Source: Opitutaceae bacterium (GTDB lineage Bacteria; Verrucomicrobiota; Verrucomicrobiia; Opitutales; Opitutaceae). Taken from it: 64,000 bases of DNA. The stretch covers positions 310,001 to 374,000 of the forward strand of contig JAIXWF010000015.1 of assembly GCA_027482185.1 (NCBI GenBank), given 5' to 3'. A model generated the notes under the pieces. The model saw only the letters and a list, made by a program, of their open reading frames with translations. It searched no databases and was not told the DNA's origin. The position numbers were made by a program, and so were the translations under genes. Shown here one piece after another: positions 29,096-64,000 of this stretch. Position 1 is the first letter of the stretch. Every line of letters starts with the position of its first letter.

Positions 29096-29357
29096 GCGCC
29101 GGTTGGATCGCCGCGCGTCAGCACCCCCGGACAAGGGCCTTGGGTTGAGCGTACGAATCCGACCGTTCGATCTCTCAACCCCCACCCCGCCGCCCTCAAC
29201 GGCCACCCACCTCAGCCGAACTCATGCAGTTGAGAGGGCTTGGTTGAGCGTTGAGCGCGGAACCGTTCGGTACCCCGGGTTGCGAGCTGCGGCTACGGCG
29301 CCCGTGACGCGACGGATCGATCTCTCAACCCTCAACTCTCAACTGCATGATCCCGCC
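29096..29357. repeat. Stop-anchored heptad element, long inverted-repeat copy
   Basis: Lies between convergent genes. A perfect 15-bp inverted repeat (29222-29236 and 29336-29350, arm TCATGCAGTTGAGAG) encloses 99 bp. Its inner sequence (heptads, then AACCGTTCGGT, a variable stretch, and CGGATCGATCT) aligns with the copy at 47147-47280. The minus-strand gene's TGA (29360-29358) is followed at once by GGCGGGATCATGCA and GTTGARR heptads. A weaker second copy is at 29141-29182. Confidence 0.8.
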
Positions 29358-29966
29358 TCAGGGCGCGGTCTGGATCTTCAGATCGGTCACCGGTTTGCCC
29401 GCGGCATCGGTGAAACGGAGACTGCCCTGCCAGTTGTTTTCCTCGTTCACGATCTTCAGGACGACGACGTTGACACCTTTCTTCAGCGTCACGCCGGGCG
29501 CGGCGTCTTCGGCGTTTTTCTCGAGCGTGCGCGTGTCGGTGAACTTCACGATTTCGGCGCCGTTGAGGTAGGCCTTGCCTTGGTCGTTGCTGTTCATCTT
29601 CAGCACGAGGCCTTTCTTTTCCTCGGCCGCGACAACGTAGGCGACGGCCCAGGCGGCGACCTGCTCGCTGCGCGACGGGTGCAGCTCCTTGAAGTCGACG
29701 TAAAAATCGGCGGCGGTGACCTTCTTCCACGTCAGTTCGAGGCCGGCGATGGATTGCTTCGCGCCTTCCTTGGCCGCGGGTTGGGCCTCGGTCGCAAATT
29801 GCTTCTGGTCGATCGCCTCGGCGCCGGAGCTGCCGCCGATACCGTAGGGCGCCAGGACGAGCCAATCGCGGATGTAGCCTTCGGCATCGGGTTTGCCGTT
29901 TTGGGCGGCCAGCGGAGCCGCGGCGGATACGAGCAGAACAAGACAAGGGAACAGGGGATTTTTCAT
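29358..29966 (-). CDS. Small secreted protein of unknown function
   Basis: 202 residues from ATG 29966 with a Sec signal peptide (MKNPLFPCLVLLVSAAAPLA). The C-terminal half (KAYLNGAEIVKFTDTRTL, then GVTLKKGVNVVVLKIVNEEN and WQGSLRFTDAAGKPV) matches a beta-sandwich module seen in secreted Verrucomicrobia and Planctomycetes proteins, often attached to hydrolases. Here it stands alone with an N-terminal RDWLVLAPYGIGG segment that normally accompanies such domains. No catalytic residues recognised. It is a single-gene unit divergent from the HDOD gene. Confidence 0.75.
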   Translation of the reverse strand: MKNPLFPCLVLLVSAAAPLAAQNGKPDAEGYIRDWLVLAPYGIGGSSGAEAIDQKQFATEAQPAAKEGAKQSIAGLELTWKKVTAADFYVDFKELHPSRSEQVAAWAVAYVVAAEEKKGLVLKMNSNDQGKAYLNGAEIVKFTDTRTLEKNAEDAAPGVTLKKGVNVVVLKIVNEENNWQGSLRFTDAAGKPVTDLKIQTAP

Positions 29967-30184: not shown

Positions 30185-31318
30185 ATGAGCGTCCTCCTTC
30201 TGCATTGGCGCAGCTGGTGGGCCCGCTTGCTTGGCTTCACCGGACCGGCCGCGCCCGCGCGCCCGGAACGGCCGGAGCCGCAACCCGCGCCCGCTCCGAT
30301 GGCGACGGCGGCGGAACCCGCCGCCCCGCCGGCCGCGGCGCGTCGTCCGGCCGACGCCGTCCCGGATGTCACTCCGCTGCTGGAAATCGTGCAACGGAGC
30401 AGCCTCGCGCCCGACGCCGCCGCCCCGGCGCGACCCGGCATTGCCCGGGAAGATATGTTGGCCCGACTTTACGATCTGAAACAGATCCCGGCGCTGCAGT
30501 CCCTCATGCAGGGCATTCTGCGCACCATGAGCCGGAACGATGTCGCGGTGGACGACGTGCTCGAGGCGATCGGCCGCGACGCCGCGCTCTGCGTGCGGGT
30601 CCTCCGGATGGCCAACTCGGTGACCGTCGCCTCGGAACAGCGCGTCGAGGAATTGCCGACCGCGGTCCAGTTGCTCGGCGTGGTCACCGTGCGGAAAGCG
30701 GCCCAGGCGCTCTTTACGCTGCGCGACGCCAACCGCACGGCGGAAGGTTTCGACTGGCGCCACCTCTGGGTGCACGCGCTCGCCACCGCGTCGATCGCCG
30801 AGGAACTGGAGCGCCGGCTGCGGCCCGCGGCCGATTCCCAGATCCACCTCGCGGCGCTGCTCCACGACGTCGGCAAAATCGTCCTTTCGACCCTCGAACC
30901 CGAAGTGTACCGCGCCGTGCTCATGCTGGCATGGGAAGACGGCGGCCGGCTCGAGACGCTCGAACGCGCCCGGCTCGGCGTCGATCACCGCGAGGCCGGC
31001 GTGGTCTTTGCCCGGGAAAACGAGCTGCCCGAACTCGTGCTCCAGGCAATCGCCCACCACGACAATCCCGCGGCCGCGGAATCGCACACCGCGGAAGTCG
31101 CGCTCATCGCCCTCGCCAACCATCTCAGCAAAGCGCACGGCCTCGGCTTCAGCGGCGCGCGCCTCACGGCCGCGGACGGCGAATGGGCCGAGTCGCCGGT
31201 GTGGGCGGTGCTGCAGGCCGAATGCGGCCCGATCGACACCGTCCATCTGGAATACGAACTGCGGACCTTTCTCGCGGACCTGCGGAGCGAACTGCGCGAG
31301 CTGCGCGAAAGCGTCTGA
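30185..31318 (+). CDS. HDOD-domain signalling protein
   Basis: 377 residues from ATG 30185. After a proline/alanine-rich N-terminal ~85 residues comes an HDOD domain (about 95-300): IPALQSLMQGILRTM at the start, then LRMANSVTVASEQRVEELPT and VQLLGVVTVRKAAQALF, and an intact H227-D228 in LAALLHDVGKIVL. The family is regulatory and related to HD-GYP c-di-GMP phosphodiesterases but lacks the GYP motif, so catalysis is doubtful. No output domain is fused. It has no obvious functional link to its neighbours and appears monocistronic. Confidence 0.88.
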   Translation: MSVLLLHWRSWWARLLGFTGPAAPARPERPEPQPAPAPMATAAEPAAPPAAARRPADAVPDVTPLLEIVQRSSLAPDAAAPARPGIAREDMLARLYDLKQIPALQSLMQGILRTMSRNDVAVDDVLEAIGRDAALCVRVLRMANSVTVASEQRVEELPTAVQLLGVVTVRKAAQALFTLRDANRTAEGFDWRHLWVHALATASIAEELERRLRPAADSQIHLAALLHDVGKIVLSTLEPEVYRAVLMLAWEDGGRLETLERARLGVDHREAGVVFARENELPELVLQAIAHHDNPAAAESHTAEVALIALANHLSKAHGLGFSGARLTAADGEWAESPVWAVLQAECGPIDTVHLEYELRTFLADLRSELRELRESV

Positions 31319-31376
31319 GCGGGTTCGTGCCGTTGAGAGCCGAGGGTCGAGCGAGCGATCCGCCGACGGCCTTCCG
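31319..31376. repeat. Degenerate stop-anchored heptad element
   Basis: Follows the HDOD gene's TGA directly: GCGGGTTCGTGCC, then GTTGAGA-GCCGAGG-GTCGAGC heptads and GAGCGATCCGCCG, in the same order and sense as the copies after 29358, 47281 and 63773. It ends in a short stem (GACGG 31365-31369, CCGTC 31374-31378) at the stop of the convergent esterase gene. Confidence 0.6.
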
Positions 31377-34462: not shown

Positions 34463-35935
34463 TCAGGCGAGGATGGCTTTGACGACGTGGGCTTCCTCGA
34501 CGCCGGTGAGGCGCACGTTGAGGCCGCGGAACTTGTGGCTGAAACGCGCGTGGTCGATGCCGAGGCAGTGCAGAATCGTCGCGTGCAGGTCGCGCAGGTG
34601 CACGGGATTTTCCGTGATGTTGTAGCAGAAATCGTCGGTGGCGCCGTACTCGAGGCCGCCCTTGATGCCGCCGCCGGCGAGCCAAACGGTGAAGGCGCGG
34701 CCGTGGTGATCGCGGCCCATGCCGGGGTCGCCGAGTTTGCCCTGGCTGAAGACGGTGCGGCCGAACTCGGTGGCGAAAACGACGAGCGTGTCCTCGAGCA
34801 GGCCGCGCTGCTTCAGGTCCTTCACCAGCGCGGCCGTCGGCTGGTCGATGTCGCGGCATTGGTTGGGCAGCTGGCGCGAGATCGCGATGTGCTGGTCCCA
34901 GCCGCGGTGGAAGAGCTGCACGAAACGGACGTTCCTTTCGAGCAGGCGGCGGGCGAGCAGGCAATTGGCCGCATAGGAGCCGGGCCGGCGCACCTCGGGA
35001 CCGTACGCCGCGAGGGTGGCGGCCGATTCGCCGGAGATATCGGTGAGCTCGGGCACGGAGGTCTGCATGCGGAAGGCCATCTCGTAGGCGTCGATGCGCG
35101 CGACGGTTTCCGGATCGCCGAGTTCGGCGGCGCGGCGGTGGTTGAGCGCGGCAAGATCGTCGAGCAGGGCGCGGCGCTGGTCGCGGGCGGTGCCGGGCGG
35201 ATTGTCGAGGTAGAGAACGGGGTTGGCCCCGGGCCGCAGCCCGACGCCCTGGTGCGACGCGGGCAAGAAGCCGCTGCCCCAGAGGCGGGAAAAGATCGGC
35301 TGGCCGGGATTCTTGCCCGTGCCCTGCGAGACCATGGCGATGAAGGCGGGGAGATTCTCGTTCTCGGTGCCGAGGCCGTAGCTCGCCCACGCACCCATGC
35401 TGGCGTATCCGGGCTGCTGATTCCCGGTGTTCATGTAGGTGATCGCCGGGTCGTGGTTGATGGCCTCCGTGTGCAGGCTCTTGATCAGGCAGATGTCGTC
35501 GGCGAGCGTCTGGATGTGCGGGAGGAGATTGCTGATCCAGGTGCCGTGGCGGCCGCAGCGTTTCCCCGGTTCCAGCGGCGGCACGACCGGATAGGCGCTC
35601 TGGCCGCTCGTCATGCCGGTGAGGCGCTGGTTGCCCTTGATCGAGGCGGGAATCTCAAGACCGGCGTGCTTGTGCAGCATCGGCTTGTCGTCGAACAGAT
35701 CGACGTGCGAGAGACCGCCGCTTTGGAAGAGGCAGAGCACACGCTTCGCTTTCGGTTTGAAATGCGGCAAACCGGGCTGCCCCTTGGCTTTTCCGGAACC
35801 GCCCGCCGCCGTTACCGCCGCCTGCAGGCTCGAGGAGAGCAGCGAACCCAGGGCAATGCCGCCGATGCCGCGCGCAGCGGAGCCGAGGAAGGTCCGGCGC
35901 GTGAGGTGGCGGAGATAATCATGGGCGGGTTGCAT
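34463..35935 (-). CDS. DUF1501 family protein with Tat signal
   Basis: 490 residues from ATG 35935. The N-terminus carries a twin-arginine signal, T-R-R-T-F-L-G followed by GIGGIALGSLLSSSL. The DUF1501 body (sulfatase/alkaline-phosphatase-like superfamily) shows CLFQSGGLSHVDLFDDKP, INHDPAITYMNTG, FATEFGRTVFSQG and GRDHHGRAFTVWLAGGG. In Planctomycetota and Verrucomicrobiota this family is nearly always encoded next to PSCyt1/DUF1549/DUF1553 genes, as here. The reaction is unknown; a periplasmic hydrolase partner of the cytochrome protein is plausible. The upstream gap to the DUF1553 gene is a 177-bp heptad array. Confidence 0.92.
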   Translation of the reverse strand: MQPAHDYLRHLTRRTFLGSAARGIGGIALGSLLSSSLQAAVTAAGGSGKAKGQPGLPHFKPKAKRVLCLFQSGGLSHVDLFDDKPMLHKHAGLEIPASIKGNQRLTGMTSGQSAYPVVPPLEPGKRCGRHGTWISNLLPHIQTLADDICLIKSLHTEAINHDPAITYMNTGNQQPGYASMGAWASYGLGTENENLPAFIAMVSQGTGKNPGQPIFSRLWGSGFLPASHQGVGLRPGANPVLYLDNPPGTARDQRRALLDDLAALNHRRAAELGDPETVARIDAYEMAFRMQTSVPELTDISGESAATLAAYGPEVRRPGSYAANCLLARRLLERNVRFVQLFHRGWDQHIAISRQLPNQCRDIDQPTAALVKDLKQRGLLEDTLVVFATEFGRTVFSQGKLGDPGMGRDHHGRAFTVWLAGGGIKGGLEYGATDDFCYNITENPVHLRDLHATILHCLGIDHARFSHKFRGLNVRLTGVEEAHVVKAILA

Positions 35936-36112
35936 CTATATATAGGAAGTTCGGAGTTGGGGGGTTCGGGGTGCGGGGTTGGGATATCGGGTCTGGGGTC
36001 TGGGGCTTCTGGTTTTGAGTTTTGGGTTCTGGGTTCTGGGTTCTGGGTTCTGGGTTTTCCGCTTTCTTAATTTCTCGCTCTTCCGATTTTCCGATTTCCC
36101 GTTTTTCCAACG
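35936..36112. repeat. Long heptanucleotide repeat array (about 20 units)
   Basis: Fills the whole gap between the PSCyt1/DUF1553 stop (36115-36113) and the DUF1501 start. On the plus strand it has GGGTTCT in four to five near-perfect copies (about 36023-36057), grading into GGGGTCT and GGGTTGG units on one side and TTCCGAT and TTTCCGA units on the other; the 7-bp period holds throughout. The rarer AT-rich tract TATATATAGG sits next to the DUF1501 ATG. Confidence 0.85.
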
Positions 36113-39100
36113 TCAGTTGCGCGTGAGGGTTTCGCTGAGGTTGAGGAGGAGGCTGGCGATCTGGGTCCAGGCGGCGTGCTCGGCCGGGGGCAGCGCGGGA
36201 TCGCGCGCGGATTCGCCGACGGCGAGCAGCGCGGTGGCCGCGGCGGCGTCCTTGGCGTAACGGGATCGCTCGCGGGCGAGCGCTTTCCCGAGCACGGCGA
36301 GTTCGGCAGGTTCGGGCGGACGCGACGTGCAGGCGGCGAAGGCGCGGCGCAGGCGCGCGGTGTCGTCGCCGGACGCGCGCAGCGTGCGTTCGGCCAAGGC
36401 CCGCGCCGCTTCGACGAACTGCGGGTCGTTGAGGGTCACGAGGGCCTGCAGCGGCGTGACGGTGTTGCCGCGGGCGACGGTGCAGACCTCGCGGTTGGGC
36501 GCATCGAACGCGACCATGTTGGGCGGCGGCGCGGTGCGTTTCCAATAGGTGTAGAGGGAACGCCGGTACAGCTTCTCGCCGCGGTCCTGGACAAAGGTCT
36601 GCGCGGTGGCGGGCGAGCTGCCATAGTGGCTGACCTCGCGCCAGAGGTCGCCGGGCGTGTACGGGTTGACGCTCGGGCCGCCGAGGCGCGGGACCAGCAG
36701 GCCGCTCACCGCGAGGGCCTGGTCGCGGACCAATTCGGCCGGGAGGCGGAAACGCGGGCCGCGGGCGAGCAGGCGGTTGTCGGGGTCGCGTTCGAGCGCG
36801 GCGGGCGTGGCCGCGGAACTCTGCGCGTAGGTCGCGCTCGTCACGATCAGGCGCACGAGGTGTTTCACATCCCAGCCGCTGCGCACGAATTCCACCGCGA
36901 GCCAGTCGAGCAATTCGGGATGGCTCGGCCATTCGCCCTGCGCGCCGAAGTCGGCCGGCGTGGCGACGAGACCGGTGCCGAAAAACAGTTTCCAGAAACG
37001 GTTCACGGCGACCCGGGCCGTGAGCGGGTTCTCCGGCATCGTCACCCACTGCGCGAGGCCGAGCCGGTTTTCCGGCGCGCCGGACGGGAGCGGCGGGAGC
37101 GCCGCGGGCGTGCCGACGCCGACCTTTTCCCCGGGCTGCGCGTAGTCGCCGCGGTTGAGGATGAAGGTGTCCCGCGGTTTGTCCGCGATCGCCATGACCA
37201 TGGTCGAAAACGGCTCGGTCAGCACGGCGACGCGTTCGCGCAGATTCGCGAGCGCGATGCGGTCGCGCTCGAGTTCGGGCGCCGTGGCCGCGCATTCGCG
37301 CCAGAGCCGCGCAGTGTGCTCCGGGGTGCGTTGGGCCGGCGGCAACGCCAGGGCGGCGACGACGTCGGCCGGCAGCGCGGTGCCGTCGTCGGTGCCGGTG
37401 ATGACGGCAACTTCGATCAGGCCGGCGATCTGGCCCTTGCCGGCGCCGAAGTTGAGCTGCGTGTTCAGGAACGGCCGGGCGCGCGCGTCGAGGGGCCGGG
37501 CCAGCGTGGCGGTGAGGTGCACGGGGCCCTCGGTGGCGAGGTCGGGCGCCCAACCGTCGTCGTTGCGCGGATCGAGGACGCCGGCGGCCGGATTGGCCGG
37601 TTCCCACGAGCTCGCGGTGACGCCGGCGAAACGCTCGAGGCGGTGCAGGTTGACCTGGTCGCCGGGCACGGCCTCCGCCGAAGCGGCGATCGCGGTGAGC
37701 TTGAACGTGCCTTTGAACGGCGGCGGCGGCGCGGGCGCGGGTTCAGCGGCCGATTTCGCCTTCTTGGCCGCCTTGGGCGCGGCTTTCGGCGCGGGCCGCG
37801 TCGGGCCGGGACCCCAACTGCCGAGCGGCAGATCGGGCACCGGGTGCATGGTGATGCGCAGGCCGGTCACGGGCGCGGCGAGCGGCGGCAGTTCGGCCAA
37901 GATATCGAAGGCCCCGAGATCGCCGCCTTGGCGGATGCGCACGCGGTGCGCGCCCTCGACTTCGAAACCGGAACCGCGATTGGGCGTGGAGATCTTCAGC
38001 ACCTTGACGGGGTGCACCTGCAGGTCGCGGCCGCGCGCGGCGAGCCGGGCCTGTTCGCGTTTTTCCCAGGCAGCGAGGAGAGCGTCGTCGCGCCGTGCGA
38101 GCTTCGCCTCGAGCGCGGCGATCTCCGTGCGCAGCCCGGGCAATTCGTCGGTCTGCAGGACGGTCTTCGCCATGATGCTCGGGCCGGCATTGATGCCGGC
38201 GTTGCCGTCGAGGCCCTTGTCGCCGAGCGAATTGAAGTAGGCGAAGAGGCGGAAATAATCCTTCTGCGAAATCGGGTCGAACTTGTGGTCGTGGCATTGG
38301 GCGCACGCGAGCGTCAGACCAAGCACGGCCTCGCCGAGCGTCTTGACGCGGTCGGCGTTGTAGTTGGTCAGGTTCTCCTCGGGGATGGTGCCGCCTTCGT
38401 GCGTGACCATGTTGTTCCGTTGGAAACCGGAGGCGATGAGGGCGGCTTCGCGCGCGGGGTCCGGGGTTGGAGATTTCGATTCCGGGTAAAGCAGGTCGCC
38501 GGCGAGCTGCTCGATGAGGAAGCGGTCGTAGGGCTTGTTGGCGTTGAAGGCCTGGATCACCCAGTCGCGCCAAAGCCAAAGGTGGCGGCCGCCGTCGATC
38601 GAGAAACCGTTGGTGTCCGCGTAGCGCGCGGCGTCGAGCCAATCGAGGGCGAAGCGTTCGCCGAAGTGCGGACTGGCAAGCAGGCGGTCGGCGTAATTGC
38701 GCAGCGCGGATTGCGGATCGCGAATTGACGCGGCGGCGAAAGCTTCGACGTCGGCGGGGGACGGCGGGAGGCCGGTGAGATCGAGCGCGAGACGGCGGGC
38801 AAGCGTGCGCGGATCGGCGGCGGGCGCGGGGGCGAGTTTTTCGGCGGCGAGGCGGGCGCGGACGAAGGCGTCGATCGGATTTGCGATTTCGGATTTGCGA
38901 TTTTCGAACGTCGGCAGCGGTGCGGCGCGCGGCGGCACGAAGGACCAGTGCTGCGAATACGGCGCGCCCTGCGCGATCCACGTTTTAAGCAGTTCCTTTT
39001 GCGCGGCGGTGAGCGTGAGATGCGCCTCGGGCGGCGGCATCACTTCGTCGGCGTGCGGGCTCACGATGCGTTGCCACGCGTCGCTGTCCTCGGGCCGGCC

Positions 39101-39331
39101 GGGCACGATGGCGGCGAGGCCCGCGCGTTCGGCATAGGCGGACTCGGGCAGATCGAGACGGCGTTTGCCCTTGCGGCCCTTTTCGTCGGGCCCGTGGCAG
39201 GAGAAACAGTTTTCCGAAAGGATGGGCCGGATGTCGCGGTTGAAGTCGACGGCCGGGGCGGCCGCGAGCGGCGCCGCGAGCACGGCGAGCCACGGGGCGA
39301 CGGAGCGGAGGGATCGCGGCAACGGCGTCAT
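36113..39331 (-). CDS. PSCyt1-DUF1549-DUF1553 secreted cytochrome protein
   Basis: 1072 residues from ATG 39331 with a signal peptide (1-25). PSCyt1 has C42-F-S-C45-H46. DUF1549 has LDLTGLPPSPADVEAF and a second CxxCH at C343-A-Q-C346-H347 (CHDHKFDPISQ). A Lys/Ala/Pro-rich linker and a LamG-like middle region follow, then DUF1553 (VNRFWKLFFGTGLVATPADF, PSHPELLDWLAVEF, WKRTAPPPNMVAFDAPNR). The start overlaps the sulfatase stop by four bases, so the two are coupled. Three in-frame segments (residues 142-152, 202-212, 281-293) are encoded by 7-bp repeat DNA and look like insertions relative to the paralogue at 1-2015. Redox function is inferred from CxxCH motifs. Confidence 0.93.
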   Translation of the reverse strand: MTPLPRSLRSVAPWLAVLAAPLAAAPAVDFNRDIRPILSENCFSCHGPDEKGRKGKRRLDLPESAYAERAGLAAIVPGRPEDSDAWQRIVSPHADEVMPPPEAHLTLTAAQKELLKTWIAQGAPYSQHWSFVPPRAAPLPTFENRKSEIANPIDAFVRARLAAEKLAPAPAADPRTLARRLALDLTGLPPSPADVEAFAAASIRDPQSALRNYADRLLASPHFGERFALDWLDAARYADTNGFSIDGGRHLWLWRDWVIQAFNANKPYDRFLIEQLAGDLLYPESKSPTPDPAREAALIASGFQRNNMVTHEGGTIPEENLTNYNADRVKTLGEAVLGLTLACAQCHDHKFDPISQKDYFRLFAYFNSLGDKGLDGNAGINAGPSIMAKTVLQTDELPGLRTEIAALEAKLARRDDALLAAWEKREQARLAARGRDLQVHPVKVLKISTPNRGSGFEVEGAHRVRIRQGGDLGAFDILAELPPLAAPVTGLRITMHPVPDLPLGSWGPGPTRPAPKAAPKAAKKAKSAAEPAPAPPPPFKGTFKLTAIAASAEAVPGDQVNLHRLERFAGVTASSWEPANPAAGVLDPRNDDGWAPDLATEGPVHLTATLARPLDARARPFLNTQLNFGAGKGQIAGLIEVAVITGTDDGTALPADVVAALALPPAQRTPEHTARLWRECAATAPELERDRIALANLRERVAVLTEPFSTMVMAIADKPRDTFILNRGDYAQPGEKVGVGTPAALPPLPSGAPENRLGLAQWVTMPENPLTARVAVNRFWKLFFGTGLVATPADFGAQGEWPSHPELLDWLAVEFVRSGWDVKHLVRLIVTSATYAQSSAATPAALERDPDNRLLARGPRFRLPAELVRDQALAVSGLLVPRLGGPSVNPYTPGDLWREVSHYGSSPATAQTFVQDRGEKLYRRSLYTYWKRTAPPPNMVAFDAPNREVCTVARGNTVTPLQALVTLNDPQFVEAARALAERTLRASGDDTARLRRAFAACTSRPPEPAELAVLGKALARERSRYAKDAAAATALLAVGESARDPALPPAEHAAWTQIASLLLNLSETLTRN
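38453..38908. repeat. Three in-frame heptad-repeat segments inside the cytochrome gene
   Basis: At 38876-38908, 38696-38728 and 38453-38491 the coding sequence turns into degenerate 7-bp arrays, for example GATTTGC-GATTTCG and GCGGATT-GCGGATC-GCGAATT on the plus strand. They encode residues 142-152, 202-212 and 281-293. The paralogue at 1-2015 has different or shorter sequence at the matching places. Confidence 0.7.
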
Positions 39332-43332: not shown

Positions 43333-43479
43333 AGCGGCGGAGCGCCGCAGTTGAGAGTTGAGGGTTGAAAGTTGAGAGCCGGAAAAGTCGCCAATTCGGC
43401 AGCGCCGCTACGATCGCGACGGTCCAAGCGGATCAATCTCTCAACGCTCAACTGCAGCGCGGGCAGCGCCCGCGCTGCG
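43333..43479. repeat. Two facing stop-anchored heptad elements with hairpins, between convergent genes
   Basis: From the plus-strand TGA (43330-43332): hairpin GCGGCG/CGCCGC (43334-43348), then GCA and GTTGAGA-GTTGAGG-GTTGAAA-GTTGAGA. From the minus-strand TGA (43482-43480): 10-bp hairpin GCAGCGCGGG (43454-43463) / CCCGCGCTGC (43469-43478), then GTTGAGC-GTTGAGA and GATTGATCCGC. Each half reads in the sense of its own gene, so the pair forms a large inverted repeat. The hairpins could end transcription in both directions. Confidence 0.78.
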
Positions 43480-46945: not shown

Positions 46946-47146
46946 GGCGGGGTGAAAGCGAGGGGCGGCCGGCGGCGTTTACGCCGGCCGAGAGGGCTGA
47001 CGAAGGGGCGGAAGGAATCGGGTCGCGTGGGAACTCCGTTGCGGCGCCGACGCGTCCCGGGCACCGGGGCAGTGCCACGGCGGCGACGTTGACGCCCGAA
47101 CGAGTCGCGTCAACTCACCGGCAGTCGCAGTCGAAGATCAGGGAGT
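46946..47146. promoter_or_regulatory. Upstream region of the malonate operon with a 9-bp hairpin
   Basis: A perfect 9-bp inverted repeat, CGGCCGGCG (46966-46974) and CGCCGGCCG (46982-46990) with a 7-nt loop, lies 20 bp upstream of the matB-like ATG. No MatR-like site was recognised. The rest of this stretch shows nothing clear; the repeat element at 47147-47280 completes the 335-bp gap. Confidence 0.5.
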
Positions 47147-47280
47147 GGAGAACGCTTGGCCGAGAGTTGAGCGCCAAACCGTTCGGTTCGTCAGGTTGCC
47201 GGCGGCGGCGGCGCTTTCCGGGGCTCGGCGGATCGATCTCCCAACCCTCAACTTTCAACTCTCAACTGCATGATTCCGGC
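47147..47280. repeat. Stop-anchored heptad element, about 130 bp
   Basis: Follows the aldo/keto reductase TGA (47283-47281) directly. Minus-strand order: GCCGGAATCATGCA, then GTTGAGA-GTTGAAA-GTTGAGG-GTTGGGA, GATCGATCCGCCGAG, a GC-rich stretch, the core ACCGAACGGTTT, and a GCTCAACTCTCGG arm. It aligns end to end with the copy at 29222-29357. Confidence 0.8.
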
Positions 47281-48282
47281 TCAGTCGAAGATCGGGTAGA
47301 ACGTGTTGAACGCGACCTCGCCGAAGTGGCCGGGATCGTTGAAACGGCGGCGGCGGTCGAGGGCGTCGATCGCGGCCATTTCCTCGCCGCTCAGGGCAAA
47401 GTCGAAGAGCGCGAGGTTTTCCGCGAGCCGGGCGGGCGACCGCGTCTTCGGGATCACCGCGCAGCCGCGCTGCACGCCCCAGCGCAGGACAGTCTGCGCG
47501 GCGGTGCGGCCATGGCGCGCGGCGATGGCGGCGACGACCGGATCCGCGAGCACGTTTTCCTCGGGCTTCGCCATGCCGAGCGGGACGTAAGACGGCGCGC
47601 CGAGCGGGGAAAACGCGGTGACGGCAATGCCTTCCTGCGCGCAGAACCGCAGCTGCCGCGGCTGCGCGAGGTACGGGTGCAGCTCGATCTGGTGGACGGC
47701 GGGTCGGATGGAGCAATAGCTGAGGACGTCGCGCAGGGCGGAGATGTTGAGATTGCAGACGCCGATGCGCTTCACGAGGCCGGCGCGCTGCAGTTCTTCC
47801 ATCGCGCCCCAGGTGTCGGCGTACGGCACCTTGATCGGCCGCATCGCGGGCTGCGCCGCCTTCGGGTCGTGGAACCACTCCGGCGGGTACCGCACGTCGA
47901 AGGGCACGAAGGCCAGCGCGATCGGGAAATGGACGAGGTAGAGATCGAGGTAGTCGAGCCCGAGGTCGCGCAGCGAACGCTCGCAGGCGGCGCGCACGTG
48001 CTTGGGTTCATGATACGTGTTCCAGAGTTTCGACGTGACCCACAGGTCCTCGCGGCGGGCGAGGCCGGCGCGCAGGGCGGCGGCGAGACCGGCGCCGACT
48101 TCGGGCTCGTTGCCGTAGTCGCAGGCGCAGTCGAAGTGCCGGTAGCCAAGGCGCACGGCCTCCTGCACGACGGCCGGGGCTTCGGGTTTCGGAAGTTTCC
48201 AGGCGCCGAGACCGACGGCCGGGAAACGCCCGCCGTCGGGCAAGGTCAGCGCGGTGGGGAGGGCAGCGGGAGACGAAGACAT
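47281..48282 (-). CDS. Aldo/keto reductase (xylose-reductase-like)
   Basis: 333 residues from ATG 48282. The catalytic tetrad is complete: D51 and Y56 (RHFDCACDYGNE), K85 (WVTSKLWN) and H118 (YLVHFP). The NADPH-binding C-terminal landmark IPKTRSPARLAENLALFDF is present. The 333-residue length and insert VRYPPEWFHDPKAAQPAMRP match the AKR2-type aldose/xylose reductases. It would reduce aldoses or other carbonyls in the cytosol. It is monocistronic, between a heptad element at its 3' end and another upstream. Confidence 0.9.
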   Translation of the reverse strand: MSSSPAALPTALTLPDGGRFPAVGLGAWKLPKPEAPAVVQEAVRLGYRHFDCACDYGNEPEVGAGLAAALRAGLARREDLWVTSKLWNTYHEPKHVRAACERSLRDLGLDYLDLYLVHFPIALAFVPFDVRYPPEWFHDPKAAQPAMRPIKVPYADTWGAMEELQRAGLVKRIGVCNLNISALRDVLSYCSIRPAVHQIELHPYLAQPRQLRFCAQEGIAVTAFSPLGAPSYVPLGMAKPEENVLADPVVAAIAARHGRTAAQTVLRWGVQRGCAVIPKTRSPARLAENLALFDFALSGEEMAAIDALDRRRRFNDPGHFGEVAFNTFYPIFD

Positions 48283-48354
48283 CCCGCGAGCGAAACGCAG
48301 GAAGCGGACGGCGTCACGGGCAAACCCCGGCAGCCCGCGGCCGCGGGCTGCCGG

Positions 48355-48481
48355 TTCAAAGCTGAAGGTTGAAAGGTGAAAGACCGGACGGTCGGCGCCG
48401 CGGTCGCGAACCCGCGCGGCGCGGAGCCGTTCGGTTCGGCCCTCAACTCTCAACCCGTCGCTCTCAGCTCCATGAATCTGC
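48355..48481. repeat. Stop-anchored heptad element
   Basis: Follows the STN-TonB receptor TGA (48484-48482). Minus-strand order: GCAGATTCATGGA, GCTGAGA, GACGG, GTTGAGA-GTTGAGG, then the core CCGAACCGAACGGC (also in the 29258 and 47189 copies), a GC-rich middle, and TTTCACC-TTTCAAC-CTTCAGC at the far end. Confidence 0.75.
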
Positions 48482-51400
48482 TCAGAAGTTGCCCCGCAGG
48501 CCGAAGACCCACGACGCGCCGTAGTCCTGGCGTTGGCGGAAGCGCGCTTCGACGGGCGTGTTGGGGCCGAAGACCTTGAAGTCTTCGGTGGCGTTGCCGA
48601 GGTTGCGGATACTGCCGAAGGCGGTGATCCGGCGGTGCAGCCGGTACTCGCCGGTGAGGTCGATGTAGAGCCGCTTGGAGCCCCAGTTGAACGTGGAGGC
48701 GTCGATGCCGCGGCCGGTGACGAGACCGCGACGCTGGCGGCCACGGTAGTTCCAGTTGAGCTTCAGGTTGTATTTGTCGCGGCCGAGGCTGAGGCCCCAG
48801 TTGTACGTGCGCGGGATGTAGCCGCTGAAGTTGTCGGCCGCCTGCCCGGTGGCGCGTTGGGCGCTGGCGTTGGCGAAGACCTGCACGCCGCGGGCCCACG
48901 GGGGCAAAAACGTGAGCGCCTGCTTGTAGTCGAACTCGAGGCCTTCCATCCGCACGGTGCTCGCGATGTTGAACTGCGTCGACACGTCGTAGCGGCCGTA
49001 GACATCCGGATCGAGATCGTAGAGGGCGAGGAACTCCGGCGTCGGCGTGAAGACGGTGCTGCCGAAGAAATTCTCGAAGTCGCGGCGGAACGCGCCGACG
49101 GAGACCTGGCCGATGCGCTCGAAGTAATACTCGAGGCGGACCTTGGCGGAACGCGCGCTCCAGGCCTTGATGCCGGCGTTGTTGACCGTGATCCGGTTGC
49201 CGGGGCTGGGCAGCGCCTCCGTATCCGGCAACGTGATGCCGCCGGCATACTGGTTGAAATCGGGGCGGCCGACGGAGGTGTAGACGGACCCGCGGACGAC
49301 GAGGTTGTCGCGCAGGTTGAAGCTCGCGTTGAGATTCGGGAAGAGCCGGAGGTACTCCTTCCGGGCCGTGAGGCCGCGATCGATGTACGTGAGCCGCGAG
49401 GTGCCGAGGGCGTCGGTCGCGATCGGGAGCGGGCGGCCGTTGGCGCCGAGGACGGGGCGGCCGGCGGAGTCGCGCTGGAAGTTGCGCGTCGGGTCGTTCA
49501 GCGGTCCCTCGGCGGTGATGTTGGTCTGCTCGGCGCGCACGCCGCCGACGAGCTTCAGCCGGCGGTCGAACAGCGCGAGGTCGCCGCGCACGTACGCGGA
49601 AGAAATCACCTCGGCCGCGCGCTTCGACAACCCAATCGCGGAACGGTAGGCGCCGTTCTGGTCGAGGGTGAAGTACGACGGGTTGCGCTGGTAGAGCTGC
49701 CACAGTTTCTCGCCGCTCACCCACTCGATCCGGCCGAAGCCGAACGGCGCGTTGCGCTGCGAGAAACTCTCGTCGAAGGCCACGCCGGCGCCGTCGTCGC
49801 TGCCGTTGCCGGGCGTGGTGGTGCCGCGGCCGTCGGCGCCGACGAAGTTCCACGTCGGCGAGCTGCCGCGGATGTCGCGGACCGCCTCGCGCACGTCGAG
49901 GCCGGCCTTGACCGAGAGAGGCAGGTCGCGCACGTAGAGGTCGCGGCGGAGGTTGGCGAACGCGCTGCGCTTCCGGTCGGAGGATTCGCGCGGGTTGGCG
50001 CTCGCGTTGAGGATGACGTAGTTGTCGATGTCGTACGGATCGACGGGCGCGCCGGTGGTGCCGTCGGTCACGATGATCCGGCCCGGGCGCAGGTAGAAGA
50101 TGTCCTCGTACGAAATCGTGACGCCCGCGCGCCGGCCCTGCGAATTGGCGAAGTAGCCGTGGTCGATGTCGCGGTAGTGGTTGCTCGCGCGGGAGAGCCC
50201 AAGGCCGGCTTCGCCGCGCCAGACGGGACCGTCGTGGCGGAACGAAAGCGTCGGCATGTAGGTCGTGCCGGACTTGCGGCGCATGCCGTTGTTGTCGAGA
50301 CGCAGGACGCCGCGGCCGGCTTCGCCGCGGGTGAACGAGGTCGAGAAATCGCCCGGGGCGATGCGGTTCACGAAGAACGTGAGCATGCGGTTGCTCAGCT
50401 CGGCGTCGAAGTAGGCGTATTGAAACGAGAAGGACAGCCGGCCGTGCTCCGTCAGCCGGTAGTCGACGGTGGCCCCGAGCGAGGAGCGTTTGCTGAACTT
50501 CGCGGAATCCTGGATCAGAAAATCCGTGAGGTAGGGCCGGTCGGGCGTCGTGTCGGGGTACTGGTTGTTGTTGGTCGTCGCGGTGAGGCCGGTGGTGGCG
50601 CCGCTGGTGCCGCGCCACGTGCTCTGGGTGAAGTCTTCGCTGGTGTACTGGTTGCTGGAGCCGCCGGAGAGCGTGAAGCCGAAGCGGCGGTTGACCGGCA
50701 CGATGAAGGTGAAGTCGAAGCCGGGCTTGATCTTCCGCGTCGGCACGGTGCGCGGGCCCGGCGTTTTCCCGAAGTCCTTGGCGTTGTCCTTCATCATCAG
50801 GAAAACGGACGCCGTGTACGAAGGCTTGGAGCGTTCGAACGCGCTGCGCGGAACCATGTTCACCGAACCGGCGAGGGCGGAACCCGGGGATTCCGGCGTC
50901 GGCGAATGGATCACCTCGACGCGCGCGAGGTTGTTGATCGAGACCTGCTCGAGCTCGACCGTGCGGGACGTGCCCGACGAGGCGGCGCTGGCGAGATCGA
51001 AGCCGCCGATCGTGACGGGGACGTTGTTGGACGGCACACCGCTGAGCGAAATGGTGCGCGCGTCGCCGCCGCCGTAGTCGATGGTGACGCCGGGCAGGAA
51101 CTTCAGGAAATCGCCGACGTTGCCCTCGGCCACGAAGCCGAATTCGTCGGCCGAGACGACGTTGACGATGTTGGGGGCGAAGCGCTGCTCGTTGATCGCG
51201 ATCGCGGCGCCGTCCATCTGCTTCGTCGTGGTGACGACCATCTGCTCGAGCTGGACGACTTTGTCGCCCGGCGCGGCGCGGCCGCTGCCGAGCTCGATAT
51301 CGTGCCGCACGGTGCGGCCGGCGGCGACGGTGACGGTGTCGGTGCGCGTCGGCAGTCCGGTGAAGAACGTCCGCACCCGCGCCGCGCCCGCGGGCACGGC

Positions 51401-58961: not shown

Positions 58962-59083
58962 GCCGGGAACGAAGCGGTTGAAAATCGGGAATCGGTAAAA
59001 CCGGAATCGGGCGCGGCCCCGTTGTGGGGCCGGGTTCCGTTCCTTCAACCTTCAACTTTCAACCTGCGACTGGCAGCCGCGGC
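58962..59083. repeat. Stop-anchored heptad element plus second 7-bp array
   Basis: Minus-strand order after TGA (59086-59084): GCCGCGGCTGCCAGTCGCA, GTTGAAA-GTTGAAG-GTTGAAG, a 6-bp hairpin (GGCCCC and GGGGCC), then CCGATTC-CGGTTTT-ACCGATT-CCCGATT units up to the dehydrogenase start. Two different heptad units thus sit back to back in one gap. Confidence 0.7.
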
Positions 59084-60001
59084 TCAGGCCGCCAGCGCGC
59101 GCAGCAGGCCGCGCACGTAGCCCATCGATTCGGCCAGGCCGACAACGGGATTGCCCGCGACCTTCTCGTATTCGAAGGAAACGACGCCGTTGTATTTGAT
59201 TTCCAACAGCGCCTTGAGCATGCCGCGGATGTCGAGTTTGCCGGCGCCGACTTCGCAGGGGACGTCGCGCATCGCGCCCGGCACCGCCAGGCTGTCTTTC
59301 ATATGCACGTCGTAAACGCGGGGCGCGTAGGCCTTGATGGCGGCGATGACGTCGTCGCCGAACCGCGCGGTGTGGCCGACGTCGATGCAGAGGCCGATGC
59401 GCGCATCGAGATTCTTGATGTTTTCCCAGATGACCTTCGGCGACGGGTAAACTTTGTCCTCGGGACCGTGGTTGTGGATCGCGAGTTTCTGGTCGAATTC
59501 CTTCACGAGCTTCTCGACGAGCGGAAGCGCGGCGATGTCGGGCTTGCAGACCATCGTGCGCATGCCGGCGGCCTTTACGTTCTCGAAGGCCTTGCGGGTC
59601 TTGGCTTCGTCGACCGTGAGGTTGACGACGCCGGAACCGGTGAGCGTGAGGCCGGCGGCCTTGAGTTTTTCGCCGACCGCACGGCATTCGTCGACCGTGG
59701 CGGCTTCCCAGTTACAATGCAGCCGGAAGAGCGCGATGTTGGACGTGCGCATCGTCTTCACGCCGGCGATGGCTTCGTCGAGGGACAGGTTGCGCAGCGA
59801 ATAGGAAGCGACGCCGAGGCGCAGGCCGTGCTCGCGGCCCTCGGGATCGGCGGGCGCGTAGGGCGTCGGGGCCGGCGCGGCGCCCTTGGCGGACTTCGGC
59901 GCCGGTTCGGCGGCGGCGGCGGCGCGGGCGAGGAGCGGCAAGGCGACCAGGCCGGCGGCGGATTTCAGGGCGGCACGACGGGAGAAGACGGATTCGTTCA
60001 T
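59084..60001 (-). CDS. Exported sugar isomerase/epimerase-like TIM-barrel protein
   Basis: 305 residues from ATG 60001. The N-terminus S-R-R-A-A-L-K-S followed by AAGLVALPLLARA looks like a Tat signal. The remainder is a xylose-isomerase-like (AP endonuclease family 2) barrel: LRLGVASYSLRNLSLDEAI, KLAIHNHGPEDKVYPSP, IGLCIDVGHTARFGDDVI, RVYDVHMKDSL and YNGVVSFEYEK, which supply the His, Asp and Glu metal ligands. The family is usually cytosolic; exported members are common in Verrucomicrobia and Planctomycetes, but their reactions are mostly unknown. It heads the dehydrogenase / MFS unit, suggesting sugar or inositol conversion in the periplasm. Confidence 0.87.
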   Translation of the reverse strand: MNESVFSRRAALKSAAGLVALPLLARAAAAAEPAPKSAKGAAPAPTPYAPADPEGREHGLRLGVASYSLRNLSLDEAIAGVKTMRTSNIALFRLHCNWEAATVDECRAVGEKLKAAGLTLTGSGVVNLTVDEAKTRKAFENVKAAGMRTMVCKPDIAALPLVEKLVKEFDQKLAIHNHGPEDKVYPSPKVIWENIKNLDARIGLCIDVGHTARFGDDVIAAIKAYAPRVYDVHMKDSLAVPGAMRDVPCEVGAGKLDIRGMLKALLEIKYNGVVSFEYEKVAGNPVVGLAESMGYVRGLLRALAA

Positions 60002-63714: not shown

Positions 63715-63772
63715 GCAGATCGGTCTCTCAACTCTCAGCTCTCAACGCTCAACTGCGGCTCGCCGCCGCCCC
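63715..63772. repeat. Stop-anchored heptad element
   Basis: Follows the LysR-type gene's TGA (63775-63773). Minus-strand order: GGGGCGGCGGCGAGCCGCA, GTTGAGC-GTTGAGA-GCTGAGA-GTTGAGA, then GACCGATCTGCCGGAG, the same order and sense as the other copies. Confidence 0.78.
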
Positions 63773-64000
63773 TCAGGCATCCCGCATCTCCGGCAGGTCG
63801 AGCCCGAGCGTTTCGATGAACTTCTTCATCGCCGGCGTGAGCACGCGGCCTTTGCGGTGCAGAATCGCCAGCGGCCGCGTGAATTCCTTCCCGGCAAACG
63901 GCAGCACGGCGAGCGTGCCCTGCTTCTGCTCCTGGGCGACCGTCGCCTGCGGCACGATCGCGATGCCGTGGTCGATCTCCACCGCGCGCTTCACCGTCTC
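63773..64000 (-). CDS. LysR-type transcriptional regulator, C-terminal fragment (5' end outside window)
   Basis: The last 75 residues plus stop of a protein entering from the right edge. The visible part begins ETVKRAVEIDHGIAIVPQAT, the hallmark of the LysR substrate-binding domain (second Rossmann-like subdomain: VKxAVExGxGIAIxP). It continues LAVLPFAGKEFTRPLAILHR and LTPAMKKFIETL, the usual end of the family. The DNA-binding domain is outside the window, so targets cannot be inferred. Confidence 0.85.
   Translation of the reverse strand, partial: ETVKRAVEIDHGIAIVPQATVAQEQKQGTLAVLPFAGKEFTRPLAILHRKGRVLTPAMKKFIETLGLDLPEMRDA

Follow-up and report, generated by a model that had tools for sequence, protein, structure and literature searches.

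The window analysed here is a stretch of 64,000 nucleotides from the 6.43-Mb genome of an Opitutaceae bacterium, assembled in 24 contigs. Genes were predicted with our own gene caller, trained on the host, and no annotation was used. Heptads of the GTTGARR type are present downstream of eight stop codons (29358, 31318, 43332, 43480, 47281, 48482, 59084 and 63773), as a sequence-only reading of the window had described, and these stops agree with our gene calls. That reading treated the repeats as a single family; the repeats are real, but two classes, hereafter A and B, had been merged as one. The eight sites are indeed mixed: two carry a full class A copy (29358 and 47281), one a truncated copy (31318), and the others a partial match, a one-arm match or no match. 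The leader and consensus motifs ascribed to the whole family do not hold as worded, since ATCATGCA occurs at just two of the eight sites (29358 and 47281) and exact CGATCCGCCG at just two (31318 and 47281).

The stop at 29358 is bordered by a near full-length class A copy on the minus strand (29217..29355; nhmmer 125.8 bits, hmm 1-146; alignment A1). A perfect 15-bp inverted repeat reported there previously (29222-29236 / 29336-29350) is present and falls in the terminal inverted repeats (TIRs) of this copy. The two copies of the target-site duplication, both read from the sequence, are CTCAG at 29211..29215 (left flank ACCCACCTCAGC) and CTCAG at 29357..29361 (right flank), and the TCA at 29358-29360 within the latter is, on the minus strand, the TGA that ends gene 29358-29966. 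The second full copy (47133..47278, minus strand; nhmmer 117.1 bits; alignment A1) lies at the stop of gene 47281-48282, and its far TIR is unrecognisable. It is flanked, at about 47128-47139 and 47282-47293, by a direct repeat of 12 bp (minus strand GATCTTCGACTG), which exceeds the usual duplication length. A truncated class A left arm follows the stop at 31318 on the plus strand (31321..31366; nhmmer hmm 2-54, E 0.0018).

The remaining sites are less complete. A heptad hairpin, identified by its fold and partly class A-like (43347..43454; nhmmer 44.7 bits), lies between the convergent stops 43332 and 43480, each of which is adjoined by a GC-rich hairpin. Another hairpin follows the stop at 48482 (48354..48478; nhmmer 41.9 bits); its stop-side end appears class A-like and its far arm class B-like in our reading. 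Class B arrays on the minus strand, recognised from their sequence, follow the stop at 59084 (59043..59070; GTTGAAAGTTGAAGGTTGAAG), where the class A profile gave no match at E <=10, and the stop at 63773 (63726..63753), where there is a one-arm class A match of 25.7 bits. At 35945-36108, two minus-strand genes (34463-35935 and 36113-39331) are separated by long arrays of a different 7-nt unit (TTCTGGG type, plus strand).

Beyond the window, GTTGARRGTTGARR has 183 + 183 matches genome-wide; the reversed-pattern control gives 38 + 51 and partly matches the same arrays. Rates were taken from the window plus C3:1-1600000, an unselected sample of 1.66 Mb, other copies coming from targeted stretches. 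A first detector requiring two units of GYTGARN, run over the window plus C3:1-800000, placed 62 of 65 arrays in intergenic DNA, with 33 in convergent gaps, 18 sense and 11 antisense in tandem gaps, and 0 in divergent gaps, yet the latter account for 19.3 of the 77 kb of gap. A looser detector, run over the whole 1.66 Mb, found 168 arrays, of which 37 lie in coding sequence; the gaps hold 66 (convergent), 63 (tandem) and 2 (divergent). Inverted arms of the form (GTTGARR)n ... (YYTCAAC)n are frequent. The distribution of GTTGARR pairs among 150 genomes of the family is patchy: 366 are found here, the next counts are 193, 140 and 99, and 107 of the 150 genomes have <=4.

Class A has the features of a miniature transposable element. 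At about 146 bp it has no room for a transposase gene, its ends are CCGGANTCATGCAGTTGA-like at both sides and form TIRs, and it is flanked by a direct repeat CTNAG in which TNA is usually the stop codon of the neighbouring gene. A profile built from seven copies gave, in an nhmmer search of the own-genome DNA examined, 71 non-overlapping matches (E 1e-10), 57 of them near full length, and the end pattern has 122 matches genome-wide versus 2 in the control. Part of the 57 copies come from regions picked by a CTNAG-containing pattern (<=3 mismatches, middle base free), and unselected class A figures were taken from the window and C3 alone (25 copies). Four of the 57 score below 70 bits and stand outside a list of 53; six of these 53 exceed 147 bp and were omitted from alignment A1, whose 47 copies have both the core and the arms in common, with 81% mean column identity. 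A stop codon lies 0-3 nt from the element edge in 49 of the 57 near-full copies, and within 3 nt of the edge in 21 of the 25 of the unselected 1.66 Mb. The eight copies of the 57 that are not at a called stop count against the model proposed below.

The flanks were compared in several ways. Where both are CTNAG, the middle base agrees in 18/19 own pairs and in 13/17 pairs from relatives. The two TNA trimers of a pair are identical 23 times out of 41 in the host, where shuffling gave a mean of 11.3 and a maximum of 21, and 16 times out of 34 in relatives (shuffled mean 7.4, maximum 14). When trimers are taken at a fixed offset, equality drops to just 27/57 (shuffled mean 13.4, maximum 24), which counts against the model. 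As judged from these flanks, the duplicated unit would be either TNA or the whole 5-mer CTNAG. Empty sites were found at all three orthologous stops recovered, in a comparison between species rather than strains. The orthologues of 29358-29966 (74.6% identity) and of 47281-48282 (83%) in the genome G102 have the same stop and no element, and an orthologue (87%) of the gene before C3:1491473, in the MAG Tous-C1TDCM (L159), ends in the same TGA, also without an element. At this last locus the next gene follows after 91 nt in the MAG and after 224 here (2 + 146 + 76). Sequence comparison thus indicates that the stop predates the element in the three loci comparable.

As to orientation, it had been claimed that every array reads in the sense direction of the gene it follows; in tandem gaps, class A arrays are instead 9 sense and 9 antisense, and class B arrays 30 sense and 15 antisense. 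The end of class A that faces the stop is the right one 27 times and the left one 23 times (one copy being counted at both ends), so that its fixed sense amounts to the symmetry of its ends, and its antisense arrays are the far arms of a two-armed element. The constant position at stops, also part of the earlier description, is real, and in class A it is explained by the DNA, through the CTNAG target and the duplication of that target.

Candidates for a parent element were sought in relatives. End-pattern matches (control in parentheses) are numerous in the genomes G187, at 63 (2), G092, at 45 (3), G144, at 35 (3), and G164, at 34 (4); in several genomes they are close to the control, for example 8 versus 8 in G054, which counts against the model. 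By our count, 43 of the 51 named stretches containing CATGCAGTTGARRGTTGARR belong to two Opitutia MAGs. With stops called by the host-trained gene caller, 12 of 22 end pairs in named relatives are at a stop and 11 have equal trimers, and in other genomes 5 of 9 are at a stop and 6 have equal trimers; with just 12/22 and 5/9 pairs at stops, the association is weaker than in the host. In G187, which belongs to the same genus, a variant MITE has unequal ends of types CCGGACTCGTGCAGTTGA and CCGGAAAAATTCAGTTGA (for example C2:62222-62402).

Two elements have ends that, compared as sequences, match those of class A, and both carry a broken IS1380-type transposase gene, their broken state counting against the model. 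L278, in G174, measures 1493 bp and has a perfect 19-bp TIR (CCGGAACGATGCAGTTGAA); its pieces match NF033539 at 7.4e-23 and 6.5e-7. Its own flanks, CTTTC / CTTGG, form no clean duplication and count against the model. L266, in G102, emerged as an IS1380-type element from a scan for long TIR pairs in the DNA examined; its TIRs are CCGGGATCAGGCAGTTTA / CCGGGATCATGCAATTGA, and its pieces match NF033539 at 3.8e-11 and 2e-10. The pieces of both elements score under the NF033539 cut-off of 180 bits, as expected of fragments, and the Pfam model PF13701 agrees for one piece of each, the L266 piece being under the curated cut-off. IS1380 elements duplicate 4-5 bp of their target. A PF13701 search of 12 genomes gave 0 matches, and hence no autonomous parent, in the host, a point against the model; the mobilising enzyme is therefore missing, lost or unrecognised there. 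Three genomes have open PF13701 frames that pass the cut-off: G013, with ends unrelated to class A, and G164 and G174 (C330), where the frames lie at contig starts that may cut off the left ends and no matching TIR pair was seen. The scan for long TIRs also led to L129:3392-4600 (VHCJ01000040.1), where a class A-like MITE, located at the stop of a gene resembling TonB receptors, turned out to be split by an IS1595-type insertion sequence with an apparent 8-bp duplication (TTCAGCTT).

Class B comprises the other GTTGARR arrays together with 7-nt arrays of other units, and is a layer separate from class A. The class A core is near just 2 of 93 class B GTTGA arrays, so that the class A model does not cover them, and class B as decayed class A is unsupported for the same reason, though class B stops are richer in the CTNAG context (27/73 versus 263/1255, p 0.001). 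Period-7 arrays number 71 in tandem gaps, 47 in convergent gaps (118 together), 3 in divergent gaps and 19 in coding sequence, and their units include GTTGARR, GCTGANN, GTTYGGA, TTYTGGG, ACCGGAN, ATTGCGG and AGCGATC. With class A masked, autocorrelation after stops peaks at lag 7, 14 and 21, indicative of head-to-tail 7-nt units, and at lag 7 it amounts to 0.383 in convergent gaps, 0.333 in tandem gaps and 0.294 before divergent starts. Class B GTTGA arrays are sense only in 25 tandem gaps and antisense only in 8 (p 0.0046), and five more such gaps hold both; 24 of the 25 sense-only arrays are <=33 nt from the stop. Of the 46 class B arrays between convergent genes, 45 lie closer to the stop of their own sense.

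Other properties of class B are less distinctive. Near-stop arrays without GYTGAR display no clear preference for purines (of 28, 15 exceed one half and 12 fall short of it), and the sequence ahead of the first heptad in the 93 arrays has a weak preference and no fixed end. GC hairpins are not clearly enriched after class B stops (21/73; background 45/169 convergent and 79/380 tandem; class A 0/22). A perfect hairpin (arm >=6) starts within 30 nt of the stop in 21 of 73 genes with a class B array and, over the host stops of the window and C3, in 124 of 549 array-free genes with a gap >=60 nt. A 300-kb sample of G054 contained one non-coding 7-nt array, so the array habit is not general in the family.

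The sequence-only reading had favoured a role of the arrays in RNA over slippage, and the two classes answer differently. If selection acted on the transcript and the arrays functioned at its 3' end, as terminators, protein-binding sites or barriers to exonucleases, one could understand the sense excess of class B in tandem gaps, its closeness to stops, the placement of convergent arrays near their own-sense stop, and a 7-nt autocorrelation that is high after stops and not before divergent starts. Yet RNAalifold on the 47 class A copies of A1 gave practically no consensus fold (-1.12 kcal/mol, covariation -0.2), with a double change in just 2 of 9 pairs, and class A sits at stops in either orientation. 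We also compared sense-strand G-T with A-C mismatches in inverted repeats, as selection in the transcript would favour G-T; there is no such excess in class A in tandem gaps (26 versus 38, or 26/64) or in the strong heptad stems of class B between tandem genes (14 versus 18, or 14/32), both being small numbers, and divergent gaps have a G-T excess (158/270, p 0.006). Rfam gave 0 matches at the gathering score within the window, and the near absence of arrays from the G054 sample also speaks against a general RNA function. An RNA element is rejected for class A on orientation, covariation and G-U tests, and we consider selection in the transcript an unlikely explanation of the arrays as a whole. 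For class B an RNA or transcription-linked cause is possible, because its sense bias does not come from symmetry. A more specific proposal, in which class B would be a sense signal of 7-nt period after stops, recognised by a protein in the transcript or working via R-loops at gene ends, and class A ends would be built from this signal or exploit it to reach gene ends, seems to us improbable. We rather read class B as a known kind of heptanucleotide repeat, placed at gene ends by promoter-avoiding selection or by a transcription-linked process. Slippage suits class B better than class A: the many period-7 units besides GTTGARR in the same gaps would fit an origin of all arrays, class A included, as slippage-born heptanucleotide repeats with inverted pairs made by template switching, but slippage yields none of the common core of class A outside the heptads, nor its duplications or empty sites. 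A slippage origin is unlikely for class A, and as an account of everything it is very hard to sustain.

Transposition by another system was also considered. The repeats are palindromic and lie in 3' gaps, with 0 arrays in divergent gaps in the window plus C3:1-800000, and the genome has one PF01797 match, as would suit palindromes of the REP/BIME type mobilised by a RAYT (Y1) transposase. That sole Y1 match is L111 (G000:C20:427781-428107, an open frame of 322 aa), and in the DNA examined, which covers just 1.8 kb to one side of the gene, there is no class A copy in that flank and none for over 7 kb in the other; moreover, class A ends match IS1380-type elements instead and a target duplication is present. 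RAYT mobilisation was rejected, and we give it hardly any credence. A further possibility is active targeting, in which this lineage's IS1380-type transposase would favour stops or gene ends beyond CTNAG and purifying selection. In the 1.66 Mb, CTNAG occurs 263 times at stops, 204 times in the rest of the non-coding DNA, 852 times in coding sequence and 18 times inside class A. If insertions survive at stops and in gaps only, and each intergenic CTNAG is equally tolerated, which is doubtful, 56% (263/467) would be expected at stops, or 61% (263/434) without divergent gaps. The observed 84% (21/25) exceeds this somewhat (p 0.0034 and p 0.011, respectively), as do all copies taken together (49/57, p 1.7e-6). 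Given the doubtful assumption of equal tolerance and the lower proportions at stops in relatives, active targeting appears rather doubtful to us.

Our preferred reading, to which we assign a probability of roughly 0.8, is that class A is a MITE and that an IS1380-type transposase moves it in trans. Such a transposase would act at CTNAG, where the element would enter and the target would be duplicated. When the TNA of the target is a TGA or TAA stop, the gene would retain its stop and be unharmed, so that insertions at stops would survive because the duplication leaves the gene with its stop. Insertions in genes and promoters would be lost and those at stops kept, and a mild targeting preference would perhaps add to survival at stops. 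The sense orientation, in turn, would follow because both class A ends read GTTGA inward. Group II introns found in stop codons likewise use the stop as a safe landing site; they are retrohoming ribozymes, unlike a DNA transposon such as class A.

As far as the published descriptions consulted in part go, class A resembles the Nezha, RUP and Correia MITEs in being short, non-coding and present in many copies, often intergenic, with IS-like TIRs and a target duplication, and differs from them by its IS1380-type ends, a CTNAG/TNA rather than TA target, a composition that is not A+T-rich, a stop codon within the duplicated target, and heptad arms (PMC3049150, PMC2229807). In the portion of the source available, 36 CDSs of Streptococcus pneumoniae are described as ending in a BOX element, which encodes the stop, whereas the stop of class A pre-exists in element-free orthologues at the three loci compared (PMC3049150). 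YPAL/RU-2 of Yersinia is likewise palindromic and not A+T-rich, with target duplications and filled and empty sites; in the parts of its description consulted, its duplications measure 3-26 bp, its targets span or adjoin dyad symmetries, and no stop-codon target is given (PMC2229807). As for class B, the excerpts at hand on the TAACTGA repeats of Beggiatoaceae describe 7-nt direct repeats in intergenic DNA, with a proposed post-transcriptional role, and cite the heptanucleotide class as prevailing among such repeats in most genomes; they consist of one unit mostly just upstream of starts, whereas class B has many units and follows stops (PMC4679880). A literature search found no stop-codon MITE of the class A kind, which is not proof of its absence from print.

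The original observation was thus a good one, partly supported: its mechanism is unsupported in the main family and possible in the remainder. The 7-nt arrays, mostly on the downstream side of genes, are a testable oddity. Class A, for its part, cautions against taking repeats fixed at 3' ends for RNA signals, and suggests that a small transposon can spread in a gene-dense genome with little harm when its target holds the stop codon and the duplication restores it.
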